Shown here one piece after another: positions 41,109 to 50,860 of a stretch of DNA of 64,000 nt (positions within the stretch are counted from its first letter, which is position 1; the number at the start of each line of letters is the position of its first letter). Source of the stretch: Zoogloea ramigera (GTDB lineage Bacteria > Pseudomonadota > Gammaproteobacteria > Burkholderiales > Rhodocyclaceae); the NCBI RefSeq assembly GCF_006539865.1, contig NZ_BJNV01000007.1:1-64000 (forward strand). The letters run 5' to 3'. Made by a program: the position numbers and the translations under genes. The notes beneath the pieces were generated by a model, which saw only the letters and a program-made list of their open reading frames with translations, was not told the DNA's origin and searched no databases.

Positions 41109-44100
41109 ATGAGAACTCTGTCTTGTCGCTCGGCTGGCCAGCGATCGAAGCTGGCCACGCTTCCGGTGGCCGTGGCCCTCGCACTGGCGAGCTCGCCTGG
41201 CCACGGCGTCGTCGACCTCCCCACGGCGCCGCTGCAGTCAGCGGCGGCGATCCCCTCGAACATCCTGTTCCTGCTCGACGACTCGGGCAGCATGCAGTTC
41301 GAGATGATGCCCGAGGACCTGATCATCTTTTCTGATGCAAAGTACTTTTATCCTGTGGGTCGGCCCGTTATCGTTTATCTTTTTCCACCCCCCAATAACC
41401 AGTACAACGGCCTCAATTACTCGGCAGCCATCCCGGCCTTCGACGACCAGAGCTACCACAATTTTTTCCGGCGCTCATCGGCTAACAACAATATCTTCTA
41501 TGATCCGACGATCACCTATACCCCATGGGTCAGGCACGACGGGTCGTCCTACGGAAACGCCTCGGCGACGGCCGCCTACTACAACCCCGCCAATACGGGG
41601 GCGGGCACCCTCAACCTGACTACCGAGAAGACCAACGTCAACAGCACCCTGTGGATCAAGGGGACCACCCCGGGCGATTATTCCCTGTGCTCCACCTACG
41701 CCTGCCAGTCCTACTGGCCGATCACCTTCTACATGTACAAGGGCACGGGCGATCGGGCCCTCGCCAGCAGCTACGTCAAGTACCAGATCCAGGGTGCGAC
41801 CGGCTACAGGACGGACCTCAACGGCGGCACGCCGAGCGCCGTGAGCAGCTTCAACTGGGGTTCGGTGACGCGCACCGTGGCGGAGGAAACCCAGAACTTC
41901 GCCAACTGGTTCAGCTACTACCGCTCCCGCGCCCACGCCGCCAAGGCCGGTGCCAGCATCGCCTTTGCCAAGCTCGGCACCAATTATCGGGTGGGTTTCA
42001 GTACCATCAACACCGCGAGCCTCGGCAACGTCATCCCGACCTCCGGCACCTTCGACGGCACCAACCGCCAGAACTGGTTCAATGCGCTGCTCGGTGCGCC
42101 CATCCCGCCCCAGGGGACGCCCCTCAAGGAGTCCCTCAGCCGGGCCGGCGATTACTTCAGCCGCACCGACGACAGCGGGCCTTACGGCCCGGCGCCGCAG
42201 TTGTCGTGCCGCCGCAACTTCACCATCCTGACCACCGACGGCTACTACAACGAGCCGGCGGTACCCCTCAGCTTCGGCAATGAAGACAACACCGCCGGCT
42301 CCACGATCACCGGGCCGGGCTCCCAGAGTTATCAATACGTGCCGTCCCGGCCCTACCAGGACAGCTACACCGGCAGCCTGGCCGACATCGCGATGTATTA
42401 CTGGAGGCGGGATCTGCGCACCGATCTCACCAACAACATCCGCACCACCAGCACCAACCCATCGTTCTGGCAGAACATGAGCACCTTCACCCTGTCCCTG
42501 GGGCCCCAGGGCACGCTCACCCCGCCGCCCAAAACACCCAACGATCTGGCCGCCCTGACCAGCGGGAGCAAGGTCTGGCCCGACCCCGCCACCGGCGAAG
42601 CCAAGAAGATCGACGACCTCTGGCACGCCTCGGTGAACGGCCGCGGCACTTTCGTTGCCGCCAAGAATCCCACCGAGTTCGCCGAGGGCCTGGTGTCGGC
42701 TCTCAACACCATCGGCGAGTCGGGTGGCGCGTGGAACGTCGCCCTCACGTCCAGCACGGTCGAGACCGACGGCCGGGTGTTCGTTGCCCGCTACGACGGC
42801 AGCTGGGGCGGTGACCTGTGGGCCGTGGCCTACAACGCCACGGGCAACATGAACACCACCGCCGACGGCACGCCGATCCCGGTCTGGAAGGCATCCACGC
42901 AACTGCCGGCCGCGGCTGATCGCAAGATCTTCACCTGGAAGGACAACGGTGGTGGTGGCATCGCGTTCACTTACAACAACCTCAGCAATGCCAAGCAGAC
43001 CGCGATCGGCAGCAGCGACGTGGTCGATTTCGTGCGCGGCGTCACCAGCAAGTCGGTGGCCAGCGGCGGCACCCTGCGCAACCGCAGCTCCCTGCTGGGC
43101 GACATCGCCAACCCCGCGCCGGTGTATGTGAAGGCCTCGAATACCGTTTTTGCGCCGGCCAACGACGGCATGCTCCACGCGTTCAATGCCGCCACCGGCG
43201 CCGAAGTGTTTGCCTACATCCCGGGTGGGGTCAATTTTGCCGACCTGAAAGCCTTCTCCAGCCCGACCTATTCGCACAAGTTCATCAACGACGGCGAGAT
43301 CGCGGTGTCCGACCTGGCTGCCACCGGCAAGAACATCCTCGTCGGCTCCCTCGGCCGCGGCGGCAAGACGGTGTATGCCCTCGATGTCACCAACCCGGCG
43401 AGCTTCGGCACCAACAACGTGATGTGGGAGTTCACCGACACCGATCTGGGCCAGGCCCTCGGCAAGCCGGTCATCGTCAAGCTGAACACCGGCGACTGGG
43501 CGGTGCTGATCGGTAACGGCTACAACAGCAGTACCGAGAAGGCCTTCCTGTTCGTCATCAACCTCAACACTGGCGCGCTCATCAAGAAGATCGCCACCGG
43601 GGTGGGGTCTTCGACCAGCAGCAACGGGCTGGCGACGCCGGTGGGTTTCGACCAGAACGGCGACGGCAAGCTCGACCTGGCCTATGCGGGCGACCTCCTG
43701 GGTAACTTCTGGAAGTTCGACCTGACCGGTGCCAGCTCCGCCTGGACCGCCACCTCGATGTTCGTCGCCAAGGATGCCAGCAACAACGTCCAGCCGATCA
43801 CCGGCGGCCTCTCCATCGCCATCGACCCCAAGACCAACAAGCGCTGGATCTTTGGCGGAACCGGTCGCTACCTGTCGAACTCCGACGTCTCCAGCACCGC
43901 GGTCCAGAGCTGGTACGGCCTGATCGACGATGGCACCGTGATCAGCTCCCGCGCCTCGCTCACCCAGCGTACCCTCAGCGCCGCCTCGGCCCAGGGCAGC
44001 TACCTCACGCGGACCTTCTCGGTCGCCAGCGCCAACGACATGGTCGGCAAGAAGGGCTGGTACGCAGACCTCACCCCCGCCAGCGTGGCGAGCGGCGAGC

Positions 44101-44486
44101 GGATCGTCTCGCGCAGCCAGTACTCGGCGGGCGTGCTGTACGTGAGCAGCATCGTCCCGAGCTCAGACGTGTGCGCCTCGGGGGGCAGCGGCTTCGTGAA
44201 TGCGGTGGACGCCTTCAGCGGCGCCAGCCTCACCAAGCCCTTCTTCGACATCAACAACGACAAGCTCTTCACCGACGCCGACAAGAAGCTCGAAGGCGGC
44301 CGGCTGCTCCCGGCCGGCTCGATCCGCACCACCGGGATGATCGGTGAGATCAACGTCAAGAAGATCAGCGGTGACCAATCCACCGCCCAGAGCTGCGACA
44401 CCACCGGCGCCTGCAAGGCGCTGCCCAACCTCAACCTGCGTGCGCTCAGCGGGCGCATCTCGTGGCGCGAGATCGTCACCGAGTAA
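41109..44486 (+). CDS. pilY1: Type IV pilus tip adhesin/assembly protein PilY1
   Basis: A 1125-residue exported protein. Signal sequence (about residues 15-32), von Willebrand A-like region with MIDAS motif DDSGSM (57-62), and a C-terminal PilY1 beta-propeller holding a calcium loop DQNGDGKLD (848-856) like the one controlling pilus extension and retraction in Pseudomonas. PilY1 sits at the pilus tip, promotes adhesion and can feed surface signals into c-di-GMP pathways, which is notable given the riboswitch upstream. CGGAG precedes the ATG. Confidence 0.94.
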   Translation: MRTLSCRSAGQRSKLATLPVAVALALASSPGHGVVDLPTAPLQSAAAIPSNILFLLDDSGSMQFEMMPEDLIIFSDAKYFYPVGRPVIVYLFPPPNNQYNGLNYSAAIPAFDDQSYHNFFRRSSANNNIFYDPTITYTPWVRHDGSSYGNASATAAYYNPANTGAGTLNLTTEKTNVNSTLWIKGTTPGDYSLCSTYACQSYWPITFYMYKGTGDRALASSYVKYQIQGATGYRTDLNGGTPSAVSSFNWGSVTRTVAEETQNFANWFSYYRSRAHAAKAGASIAFAKLGTNYRVGFSTINTASLGNVIPTSGTFDGTNRQNWFNALLGAPIPPQGTPLKESLSRAGDYFSRTDDSGPYGPAPQLSCRRNFTILTTDGYYNEPAVPLSFGNEDNTAGSTITGPGSQSYQYVPSRPYQDSYTGSLADIAMYYWRRDLRTDLTNNIRTTSTNPSFWQNMSTFTLSLGPQGTLTPPPKTPNDLAALTSGSKVWPDPATGEAKKIDDLWHASVNGRGTFVAAKNPTEFAEGLVSALNTIGESGGAWNVALTSSTVETDGRVFVARYDGSWGGDLWAVAYNATGNMNTTADGTPIPVWKASTQLPAAADRKIFTWKDNGGGGIAFTYNNLSNAKQTAIGSSDVVDFVRGVTSKSVASGGTLRNRSSLLGDIANPAPVYVKASNTVFAPANDGMLHAFNAATGAEVFAYIPGGVNFADLKAFSSPTYSHKFINDGEIAVSDLAATGKNILVGSLGRGGKTVYALDVTNPASFGTNNVMWEFTDTDLGQALGKPVIVKLNTGDWAVLIGNGYNSSTEKAFLFVINLNTGALIKKIATGVGSSTSSNGLATPVGFDQNGDGKLDLAYAGDLLGNFWKFDLTGASSAWTATSMFVAKDASNNVQPITGGLSIAIDPKTNKRWIFGGTGRYLSNSDVSSTAVQSWYGLIDDGTVISSRASLTQRTLSAASAQGSYLTRTFSVASANDMVGKKGWYADLTPASVASGERIVSRSQYSAGVLYVSSIVPSSDVCASGGSGFVNAVDAFSGASLTKPFFDINNDKLFTDADKKLEGGRLLPAGSIRTTGMIGEINVKKISGDQSTAQSCDTTGACKALPNLNLRALSGRISWREIVTE

Positions 44487-44517
44487 GCACGCTCGAGCCC
44501 GAGCGAAGGAGACCACC

Positions 44518-44970
44518 GTGCGCAACACACCACCGTCCCCACAGCGGCCGCTCCGGCGGCAAGGGGGCATGACGCTCATCGAGCTGATGATCGCGGTCGT
44601 CATCGTCGGCATCCTCACGATGATCGCCTATCCCAACTACACCAGCCATGTCGTCAAGAGCCGGCGCGGCCAGGCCACCGCCTGCCTTCAGGAGGCCAGC
44701 CAGTTCATGGAGCGCTTCTACACCACCAACCTGCGCTACGACCAGACCACCGGCGGCGCAGCGGTCAGCCTGCCCACCACGTCGTGCATCCAGGACATGA
44801 GCGGCCGCTACGTGATCTCGATCGGCAGCGTGAACGCCAACAGCTTCGTCCTCCGGGCAACGCCCCAGGGCGCCCAGGCCAGCTCCGACACCCAGTGCGG
44901 CACCTTGAGCCTCAGCCAGAACGGGACGAAGGCGGTGTCGGGCACGGCGGCGGTGGCTAGCTGCTGGTGA
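44518..44970 (+). CDS. pilE: Type IV minor pilin PilE
   Basis: A 150-residue pilin. Leader MRNTPPSPQRPLRRQGG, then MTLIELMIAVVIVGILTMIA with Glu5. The C-terminal region has two Cys pairs (TACLQEA, TSCIQDM, TQCGTL, ASCW). Order and size match P. aeruginosa pilE, last of fimU-pilV-W-X-Y1-pilE. Start is GTG at 44518 with GAAGGAG upstream; an ATG at the mature N-terminus cannot be the start because the leader is required. Confidence 0.9.
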   Translation: MRNTPPSPQRPLRRQGGMTLIELMIAVVIVGILTMIAYPNYTSHVVKSRRGQATACLQEASQFMERFYTTNLRYDQTTGGAAVSLPTTSCIQDMSGRYVISIGSVNANSFVLRATPQGAQASSDTQCGTLSLSQNGTKAVSGTAAVASCW

Positions 44971-45779: not shown

Positions 45780-47354
<1,575 letters not shown>

Positions 47355-47530: not shown

Positions 47531-48196
47531 TCACGGGGCGGCGGCCAGCCCGGGGCGCTGCAGCAGCCCCAGGGCCTGCAGGCGGTCCAGGCTCCAGCCC
47601 GGGCCGAGCAGGAGCAGGCGGGTGTTCAGGTCGTCGCGCAGGGCGGCGGCCGGCTCTGCGCCCAGATAGTGCATGCGCCGCTTGCGCAGCGCGACGTAGC
47701 CGAGCCGGAAACGGCGCCCCAGGGCGAGCCACAGGGCGTGGGCGCCGGCGGACTGGCGCGCACCGCTGACCAGGCAGAAGCCTTGCTGCAGGCCCCATTC
47801 GTACACCGCCGTGGCGATGCCGCGCCGCTGGTAGGCTGGCGCGTACCTGGAATGCGGGGCCCGCACATGGGGGTCGGTGCGGCGGTCGACTTCGATCAGG
47901 CGGTTGAACACGGTGTAGCCGGCGAGGCAGCAGCGGACGGTGTCCTCGACATAGACGTAGTGCTCGCCGTCGGCCTCCCGGTGGCGCCACACCAGCCCGG
48001 GGGATTGGCTGGGCAGCGTGGTGCAGGCGCCCAGCGGGTCGGCTGCGGTGTGGAGGCGTCGGTGGAGGGTGTCGAGCTCGCTTTCGATGGTCTCATCGGG
48101 GCGCTGCACGTCAATGCGCAATTCCATCCGCGGGCACAGGCCCTTGAAGAGGCCGGACAGGCCGTGCGGTAGGGGCGGAAGGGGTAGGGTGGCCAT
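47531..48196 (-). CDS. GNAT-fold acetyltransferase-like protein
   Basis: A 221-residue protein with a GNAT-type acetyl-CoA region in the middle: YAPAYQRRGIATAVYEWGL (residues about 117-135), then SAGAHALWLALGRRF. The substrate is unknown. It begins four bases after the stop of the beta-helix gene upstream, so the two are co-transcribed. An acetyltransferase paired with a repeat protein may modify it or a shared partner; that is inference. Confidence 0.7.
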   Translation of the reverse strand: MATLPLPPLPHGLSGLFKGLCPRMELRIDVQRPDETIESELDTLHRRLHTAADPLGACTTLPSQSPGLVWRHREADGEHYVYVEDTVRCCLAGYTVFNRLIEVDRRTDPHVRAPHSRYAPAYQRRGIATAVYEWGLQQGFCLVSGARQSAGAHALWLALGRRFRLGYVALRKRRMHYLGAEPAAALRDDLNTRLLLLGPGWSLDRLQALGLLQRPGLAAAP

Positions 48197-48199
48197 GGC

Positions 48200-49072
48200 T
48201 CAAACCACACCGGGGCCGGCCCACCAGCCGCTCATCAGGCCTTCGGGCTTTTCCGGTGCGCTGACGCGGGCACTGCTTTCCCAGGCTTCAACCTGTACGT
48301 CGAGCCCGGCGAACACGCCATAGCCCTGTCCGGCGCGGATGCCTTCGCCGGCCCACAGGCTCTCGCCCGCCCGGATGGCCCCGTCCGCATGGATGACCCC
48401 GCCCGCCTTGATCCCCCACCCGGCCTCCAGGTGCATGGCGCCGTGGATCGAACCGCCGGCGGCGATGCCCTGGGCCACCCGCAACTGGGCCTGGGCCGTG
48501 AGGTCGCCGCCCACGTGCAGCCCCTTGGCACAGCGTAGGTCGCCCTCGCTGCAGAGGTCGATGCCGACGAAGGCGCTGCCCTCCAGGCGCAGTCGGCCGG
48601 CGCAGTGGAGGTTCCAGCCGGCGCGCAGCTCTCCGCCGCAGCGCAGGTCGCCGGCCGACTCCACGCCCCAGCCGGCCCGCAGGTCACCATCGACCGCCAC
48701 GCGGCCGCCAGCCCGCACCTGGCCTTCGACCCGCAGGTTTCCCCCGACGATCAGGTCGCCGCTGGTGCGCAGGCCGCCCTCTACCCGCAGATCGCCGCCG
48801 ACGTGCAGCTTGCCTTCGACGTCCACGTTGCCTCGCACCTGCAGCGTGCCTGTGAACACGAGCGCGTCCGCCTCGATTTCATCGACGACCCGTACTTCGC
48901 CGGTCGGCCCGAACTGTTCGAGCAGCCAGCATGCGTCGCCGACCCGGCCGGCTGCGACCATCGTGTCGAGCAGCTCCTGGTAATTGCCGCCTTCGTCGAA
49001 CTGGCGGACGAACCAGCGGAATCCATCGGTGCACGGGCGCTTGGCCCGGACGAAACTTCTTGTGAGAACCAT
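48200..49072 (-). CDS. Repetitive beta-helix (bactofilin-like) protein
   Basis: A 290-residue protein in two parts. Residues about 1-55 form a compact domain (RPCTDGFRWFVRQFDEGGNY, then LLDTMVAAGRVGDACWLLEQ) I cannot name. Residues about 65-270 are short Gly-rich repeats of about six residues such as GGDLRV, GGNLRV, AGWGVE and AGGSIH, as expected for a right-handed beta-helix of the polymer-forming bactofilin kind. The ATG at 49072 has GAGGGG upstream. No membrane segment is present. It probably assembles as a scaffold; the role is unknown. Confidence 0.7.
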   Translation of the reverse strand: MVLTRSFVRAKRPCTDGFRWFVRQFDEGGNYQELLDTMVAAGRVGDACWLLEQFGPTGEVRVVDEIEADALVFTGTLQVRGNVDVEGKLHVGGDLRVEGGLRTSGDLIVGGNLRVEGQVRAGGRVAVDGDLRAGWGVESAGDLRCGGELRAGWNLHCAGRLRLEGSAFVGIDLCSEGDLRCAKGLHVGGDLTAQAQLRVAQGIAAGGSIHGAMHLEAGWGIKAGGVIHADGAIRAGESLWAGEGIRAGQGYGVFAGLDVQVEAWESSARVSAPEKPEGLMSGWWAGPGVV

Positions 49073-49558
49073 TACATCACCCCTCGGCAAACGGGCTGCC
49101 GCGCATGGCGCGGCACTCAGCAGCCCGGGCGGGGGCGTTGCACAGGAAGGGTTTTTCGCGGCCCGGAAAGGCCCGGGGCATGGCCGCTGTCACGGCCGTG
49201 GGTGCGAAAAGGAGGGCGCCTGGCTTCCCGCTCTGGCTGCACGTTGAACAAGGCACAGAAAGCTGTGCCCTGGGCAAGGTGCCGTGCGGGGTGGCCTGGG
49301 ATCAGTCCCGGTTCCGGCCCCGCACGGCCTGGGAAAGCACGGCCGGGGACCCTGTAACCTTGAAGGCCAGCGCCAGCCCGATACCGAGGTGGCCTGACGG
49401 AGTCTGCAGTCTGCCGGGCACCCGACGGCCCGCGTCGTGAAACGCGCAGGCGTAAGCGTCGAAGTGCATGGAAGGCATCACGGGCAGACCCGATGGAGAG
49501 GGAACCCGATTATAGGCCAGGCGCAGGCCCCCGGGTGAGCGCCGGGGCCGTGAACGAC
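49073..49558. other. Gene-free stretch with two strong hairpins
   Basis: No convincing reading frame. Hairpin one is GGCACAG/CTGTGCC (49252-49269) with loop AAAG. Hairpin two is a perfect 11-bp stem, GCCGTGCGGGG (49281-49291) and CCCCGCACGGC (49318-49328), enclosing an inner GGGA/TCCC hairpin. Together they make an 80-base structured element. It could be a small RNA or a repeat-type element. The promoter of the beta-helix gene should also lie here. Confidence 0.45.

Positions 49559-49600: not shown

Positions 49601-50860
<1,260 letters not shown>

Follow-up and report, generated by a model that had tools for sequence, protein, structure and literature searches.

In the window analysed here, the first 64,000 nucleotides (nt) of contig NZ_BJNV01000007.1 from Zoogloea ramigera, a beta-solenoid gene, which we named bacf, is followed on the minus strand by gnat, the gene for a GNAT-fold protein. 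That bacf and gnat share a structured leader, type A, is well supported, and with modest confidence we favour the interpretation that the two genes form an accessory module controlled by a leader RNA and tied to the betaproteobacterial general stress response. An earlier note on this stretch had proposed an assembled scaffold paired with an enzyme, an interpretation that is partly supported by the results below. The bactofilin-like solenoid gene beside a GNAT-fold gene is real, as borne out by open reading frames (ORFs), relatives, Pfam matches and fold models, and gnat begins 3 nt past the bacf stop codon (not the four bases given in the note). The three elements of the proposed module are as follows.

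48200-49072, minus strand: solenoid gene bacf, an open frame of 290 amino acids containing the sequence quoted in the earlier note, RPCTDGFRWFVRQ; bactofilin-type beta-solenoid with caps
47531-48196, minus strand: gnat, coding for a GNAT-fold protein of 221 amino acids, conserved from about 48127 (alignment and model), with motif A Q123-R-R-G126-I-A128
49234-49370, minus strand: type A structured leader, 161 nt upstream of the bacf start codon, identified by covariation and without an Rfam family

A structured leader shared by bacf and gnat

The conserved block upstream of bacf spans 137 nt with a mean column identity of 81% across 28 sequences. In the structure tested, 97.6% of cells were paired, falling to 28-53% when the partner strand was slid by 1-3 columns. 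Six pairs had changed on both sides compared to 2.2 in shuffles, and 31 compensatory cells were counted compared to 7.9, with the structure derived from the same sequences used for counting and the shuffles ignoring relatedness. Most of the covariation was held by helix 5 (5/6 pairs) and helices 1, 2 and 4 hardly varied. The helices located in the window were the following.

49318-49326, minus strand: 5′ strand of leader helix 2, partner 49283-49291 (pair test)
49283-49291, minus strand: 3′ strand of leader helix 2 (pair test)
49239-49282, minus strand: leader helices 4 and 5, with both sides changed in 5/6 pairs of helix 5

When folded as single sequences, five type A leaders scored 2.95 to 5.59 standard deviations better than shuffles. 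This folding, the nesting of helices with conserved internal loops, the loss of pairing on sliding and the prediction of leaders before rnk in other bacteria (PMC2965389) all speak for an RNA and against a DNA element, that is, a promoter and operator complex in which the compensatory changes would reflect palindromic protein-binding sites. Palindromes can covary too, however, most pairs in helices 1, 2 and 4 are nearly invariant, and a consensus scan around the window genes found no terminator-like site (nor any sigma-70-like promoter), so that the DNA element keeps some footing as an unlikely alternative. A search of the window region against Rfam 15 (E up to 10) gave sub-threshold matches only and the leaders of 10 loci gave none, and no leader ORF was consistent across type A loci.

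Taken as an RNA leader, type A was surveyed with a covariance model trained on bacf leaders only, across 80 bacf loci (the best 80 of 133 genome-contig stretches with bacf relatives), 150 family genomes and 399 order genomes. It was found in 31 of the 80 loci in addition to the window (64 rows, of which 33 strong ones were kept and 31 weak or minus-strand ones dropped). The family genomes yielded 15 matches, 13 before bacf (including that of the window) and two before a gnat without adjoining bacf, one in genome G033 and the other in G031, whose bacf on another contig has a second copy. Among the order genomes, the window was joined by two matches: that in L182 lies before bacf, that in L183 (29.9 bits) before gnat. 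The bacf and gnat genes of Cupriavidus metallidurans CH34 are approximately 366 kb apart on a megaplasmid, and type A preceded both (23.2 bits at bacf, 43.2 bits at gnat). Some assemblies in the genome samples had also supplied training loci, which means that the bacf-side matches are not independent; the four gnat-side matches are independent of the model because only bacf leaders were used in training. The presence of the same leader before separated copies suggests a functional link between bacf and gnat.

Two loci with type A leaders are unusual. Locus L065 (5980-9354) contains a tandem bacf pair with a type A leader before each copy. A contig filed as Novosphingobium (L054) carries bacf and a leader of Zoogloea/Thauera type and is probably misbinned.

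Recurrence of the bacf-gnat pair

A gnat homologue was present in 42 of the 80 loci (partial in L079). At E 1e-20, 39 of 41 homologues lay directly downstream of bacf on the same strand, with -31 to 187 nt between the bacf stop codon and the conserved part of gnat; the remaining two followed the second bacf of the tandem pair in L065 or lay on the opposite strand (L119). In a family sample of 101 genomes, 28 had any solenoid match and 11 a full-length bacf, and 11 had any GNAT match and nine a full one (the 17 genomes with weak partial solenoid matches and two with weak partial GNAT matches were dropped). Both genes were present in eight genomes, bacf only in three, gnat only in one and neither in 89 (Fisher P = 7e-9, relatedness ignored), and the two were adjacent in seven of the eight genomes having both. 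The pairing therefore recurs over many betaproteobacterial genera and is not obligate. The earlier note named the lack of a recurring pairing as what would refute its view; the pairing does recur, both in the 80 loci and in the family, where seven of the 11 full-length bacf genes had gnat adjacent.

The surroundings of the pair differed: when ten other ORFs of the window were compared with 12 neighbourhoods of approximately 19 kb, only a thioredoxin was matched, at 23% identity, and among these neighbourhoods L040 and L043 had mutually shared flanks. Such differing flanks, the scattered occurrence (in 11 of 101 family genomes) and the presence on Cupriavidus megaplasmids would fit a small mobile cargo, in which leader, bacf and gnat travel together without a joint function. 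Separated copies of bacf and gnat keep the same leader, however, each gene also occurs alone, and no transposase was recognised by eye among the recurring neighbour clusters; we consider a cargo unlikely. The recurring neighbours of bacf loci comprised LysR genes (15 loci), a PAS-GGDEF cluster (10 loci) and a MASE1 kinase cluster (nine loci), and the gene after gnat was common to G100 and G033 at 72% identity.

A phage origin of the pair was rejected: ten viral-contig loci and a phage collection yielded no GNAT homologue, and no type A leader turned up in 13 viral sources of this kind. A role in anti-phage defence was also rejected, PADLOC giving only BrxB at E 0.057.

A second leader and its stress genes

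A second leader, type B (model R2), was found in 42 of the 80 loci, directly before bacf in 32 and before rnk-like(-usp)-bacf gene orders in 10 (three weak minus-strand rows were dropped). The products of rnk-like genes are GreA relatives and usp codes for a universal stress protein. Neighbours were recognised with rnk and usp profiles built from the same loci, fusion proteins included, with Pfam run on representatives only; among the 10 loci, GreA_GreB and Usp were Pfam-confirmed for one locus each. Seven bacf loci had neither leader, six of them with usp or an rnk-like gene within 4 kb (five Pfam-supported) and one, L080, with none. In 300 order genomes, model R2 gave nine matches in seven genomes, of which seven lay before rnk-like genes and one before gnat. 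In Variovorax RA8, a gnat is flanked by two usp genes, each preceded by a type B copy. The loci L106 and L120 look like copies of each other and are filed as Hydrogenophaga and Azonexus metagenome-assembled genomes (MAGs), probably through misbinning in one.

One strand of type B could form two mutually exclusive pairings. The downstream pairing had 13 compensatory cells compared to 4.8 in shuffles (whole structure), and the upstream pairing seven compared to 1.2, with its doubly-changed count reached by 126 of 500 shuffles; a two-state switch built on these exclusive pairings is only suggested. Against Rfam 15, searches with type B (10 loci, one stretch and a further 10 loci) gave bxd_1 as the best match, sub-threshold at 22.5 of 75 bits. 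In 27 of the 32 direct type B loci, a short ORF followed a purine-rich start signal (pattern search without a chance control), and 23 of these 27 ORFs had their end either exactly 10 nt inside bacf or 5 nt ahead of its start. Such spacing is a hint of translational coupling, with some ends possibly fixed by conserved bacf start codons. The short ORF of L092 looks by eye like a shortened rnk start, so loss of the intervening genes may have left bacf with an rnk leader. The type A model scored 15.9 (L099), 16.4 (L101) and 11.9 bits (L178) on type B places, which offers only hints of a common origin of the two types. Rfam matches outside the leaders were SECIS_3 (L126:4319-4377), a glycine riboswitch (L088:1889-1983) and a manganese riboswitch (L069:5304-5477).

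For Enterobacteria, Pseudomonas and Yersinia, Naville and Gautheret (2010; PMC2965389) predicted attenuating leaders ahead of rnk, setting a precedent for leader control of the rnk class. Type B resembles the rnk leaders described there as a structured block upstream of rnk-like genes; it differs from them in being common to usp, solenoid and GNAT genes, and the window leader differs further as a type A leader that does not precede rnk. No paper was recognised on the bacf-gnat pair, on these leaders or on a leader common to rnk, usp, solenoid and GNAT genes, in a search covering few subscription journals.

The GNAT protein and its fusion to Rnk

The model of the gnat product, built from 42 sequences, had a predicted local distance difference test (pLDDT) score of 89.1 and matched GNAT structures with a best Foldseek E of 3e-4 at a probability of 1.00. 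It superposed on RimL with a Z score of 8.4, at 3.2 Å over 115 residues. The consensus of GNAT motif A is Q/R-x-x-G-x-G/A, and this motif was kept across the 42 sequences, with G126 invariant and Q123 and A128 each conserved in at least 90%. The fold and the motif A form Q-x-x-G-x-A are thus common to GNAT acetyltransferases such as RimL, AAC(2'), SpeG and Rv0998; unlike those, the window protein falls under the Pfam Acetyltransf_1 cut-off (15.0 compared to 20.7 bits). Acetyltransf_1 was matched at E 0.1 by 17 of the 42 relatives, and a sequence search of the PDB gave a best E of only 0.3. These comparisons indicate a GNAT-superfamily fold and a probable acetyltransferase. Homology begins at about residue 24 and confident structure at about residue 30; the first ~23 residues are unconserved and poorly modelled, so the true start may lie ~69 nt downstream, near 48127.

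In two of the 80 loci, from Thiobacillus (L102:7074-8003) and Propionivibrio (L131:6849-7832), the gene after bacf coded for a fusion of an Acetyltransf_3 GNAT domain with Rnk_N and GreA_GreB (Pfam), and the usual gnat was not found in either locus. That another kind of GNAT is joined to Rnk at this position strengthens the link between GNAT, Rnk and solenoid. A remnant GNAT suspected by eye before the L102 fusion was unsupported on testing.

A capped solenoid

The solenoid family was aligned using 60 of 81 sequences, a set that includes the window protein, and has 36 invariant residues; the closest named relative of the window protein, from a Zoogloea MAG, has 96% identity. The model from this alignment was confident (pLDDT 94.6, predicted TM-score 0.90) and consists of four helices (residues 5-54), approximately 30 short strands spaced by six residues (60-246) with a cap at the C-terminal end, giving three parts.

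48902-49072, minus strand: N-terminal helical cap, residues 1-57 (alignment and model), shared with YdhT of E. coli and ORF55 of phage GF-2
48335-48901, minus strand: beta-solenoid, residues 58-246, approximately 10 turns with a strand per six residues (model and Bactofilin match)
48203-48334, minus strand: C-terminal cap, residues 247-290, with strong conservation up to residue 286 (alignment and model)

The model superposed on the beta-helical antifreeze protein 3p4g at 3.4 Å over 214 residues and on LpxD and GlmU only at 11-12 Å. Given the handedness of these three entries, the good and poor fits were read as a right-handed helix. The solenoid is therefore probably right-handed on this modelling, with turns of ~18 residues. 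The earlier note had described a hexapeptide-repeat protein; strands do recur at every sixth residue, but by the same superpositions the model is probably not a left-handed hexapeptide helix. Foldseek found nothing in the PDB at E 0.001, and a PDB sequence search gave a best E of only 0.16. Solved bactofilins were not among the 50 entries listed by VIA, which is uninformative either way.

Residues 76-132 matched Pfam Bactofilin (PF04519) at 31.7 bits compared to a cut-off of 27.9, and Pfam gave nothing for residues 1-57 at E up to 1. The protein is like bactofilins in being a beta-solenoid with ~18 residues per turn that scores above the Pfam cut-off, and the recurring pairing with gnat would also fit a filament that polymerises as bactofilins do, with the GNAT protein acetylating it or tethered to it. 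In bactofilins, which polymerise, the solenoid core is short and its ends are disordered and lack caps; in place of disordered tails, the modelled bacf product has a folded helical cap at the N terminus and a conserved cap at the C terminus, with ~10 turns between them. Mean pLDDT per ten-residue block was 78-93 in the N-terminal and 82-96 in the C-terminal cap, and no segment fell below 50. The ends were also more conserved, with the top residue reaching at least 90% at 30 of 57 positions in the N-terminal cap, at 17 of 46 in the last turns and at 19 of 40 in the C-terminal cap, compared to only 15 of 73 and seven of 70 positions in the rest of the solenoid. Since caps that are folded and conserved at both ends argue against a bactofilin-like filament, since at E 0.01 FapA was matched by 52 of the 60 relatives compared to 16 for Bactofilin, and since 38 of the 80 loci lack a GNAT homologue, we regard the filament as very unlikely. 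The assembled scaffold of the earlier note is likewise unsupported, given those caps. The modelled protein is better read as a capped rod that would provide a binding surface.

The N-terminal cap is also present in E. coli YdhT, in Edwardsiella phage GF-2 ORF55 and on a gut phage contig. A profile of residues 1-57 matched YdhT (NF007410) at 21.7 bits, and 36 of the 60 relatives matched NF007410 at E 0.01; unlike YdhT, the window protein has another body repeat and scores 17.6 bits compared to the equivalog cut-off of 300. The gene ydhT belongs to the FNR-activated ydhYVWXUT operon according to PMC3688515. No FNR box with fewer than two mismatches was found upstream of bacf, and boxes with 2-3 mismatches occurred in 23 of 81 upstream regions compared to 17.7 in shuffles; lacking a clear excess, the parallel with YdhT and FNR was dropped. 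GF-2 ORF55 (L047:6001-7047) has the same cap (59.1 bits); unlike bacf, it carries collagen-like repeats and is encoded beside the phage N gene. Relatives of bacf occurred on ten viral contigs, some nearly full length, and six of these ten loci matched the cap profile, three of the six appearing to be mutual copies. Foldseek against viral models gave seven matches (best 5e-7, an uncultured phage protein), and the matches in PHROGs were weak and of solenoid type (best E 0.0012).

Layout of the locus

On its 5′ side, bacf is separated by a 528-nt gap from a gene at 49601-50860, which we take to be Rho-like, and on the 3′ side of gnat lies a gene at 45780-47354, presumably PrfC-like (both named from their sequences). 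ORFs within 41109-44970 appear by eye to resemble PilY1 and type IV pilin. One further feature lies in the gap.

49098-49114, minus strand: inverted repeat with 7-nt arms just 5′ of the bacf start; the arms look compensatory in relatives (by eye, uncounted)

A stress-linked module

In the module favoured here, the leader RNA would set the expression of bacf and gnat in cis, and this expression would be induced by stress, a use suggested by the Rnk-like and Usp genes that accompany type B relatives. The solenoid would be a capped rod with a binding surface and the GNAT protein its partner enzyme. Taken as active, the GNAT protein would modify either the solenoid or some partner that the two have in common, perhaps RNA polymerase by way of Rnk.

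Several observations weigh against such a module. In none of the 31 type A loci did the profiles detect rnk-like or usp genes within 4 kb, and the window genome's own rnk lies on another contig with neither leader, so type A is linked to stress by analogy only. A weak type A match (L089 9779-9898, 23.2 bits) preceded neither gene, and one R2 match (L150:1212-1424) preceded an unrelated ORF of 71 amino acids without a Pfam match, possibly a further target gene or a chance match. The 38 loci without gnat (a few of them on short contigs) are joined by the three of 11 family genomes that have bacf alone, and three Burkholderia gnat homologues had no leader, bacf or usp within 5.5 kb.

A broader proposal, which we consider speculative and improbable as a whole, is that types A and B are two forms of a single uncatalogued two-state leader, which would sense a signal linked to stress and co-ordinate Rnk, Usp, the capped solenoid and GNAT. 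The GNAT protein, either recruited to RNA polymerase by Rnk, as the natural GNAT-Rnk fusion suggests, or tethered by the solenoid, would then acetylate the transcription machinery when growth is arrested.

With the leader, a repeat protein and an acetyltransferase, both anonymous until now, gain a common control element, and two alignable leaders without an Rfam 15 match connect stress genes across Betaproteobacteria. The N-terminal cap provides an entry point for studying E. coli YdhT and the phage proteins sharing the domain. Two ideas are now testable: that one RNA may govern genes lying apart, and that an acetyltransferase may be directed to RNA polymerase via Rnk.
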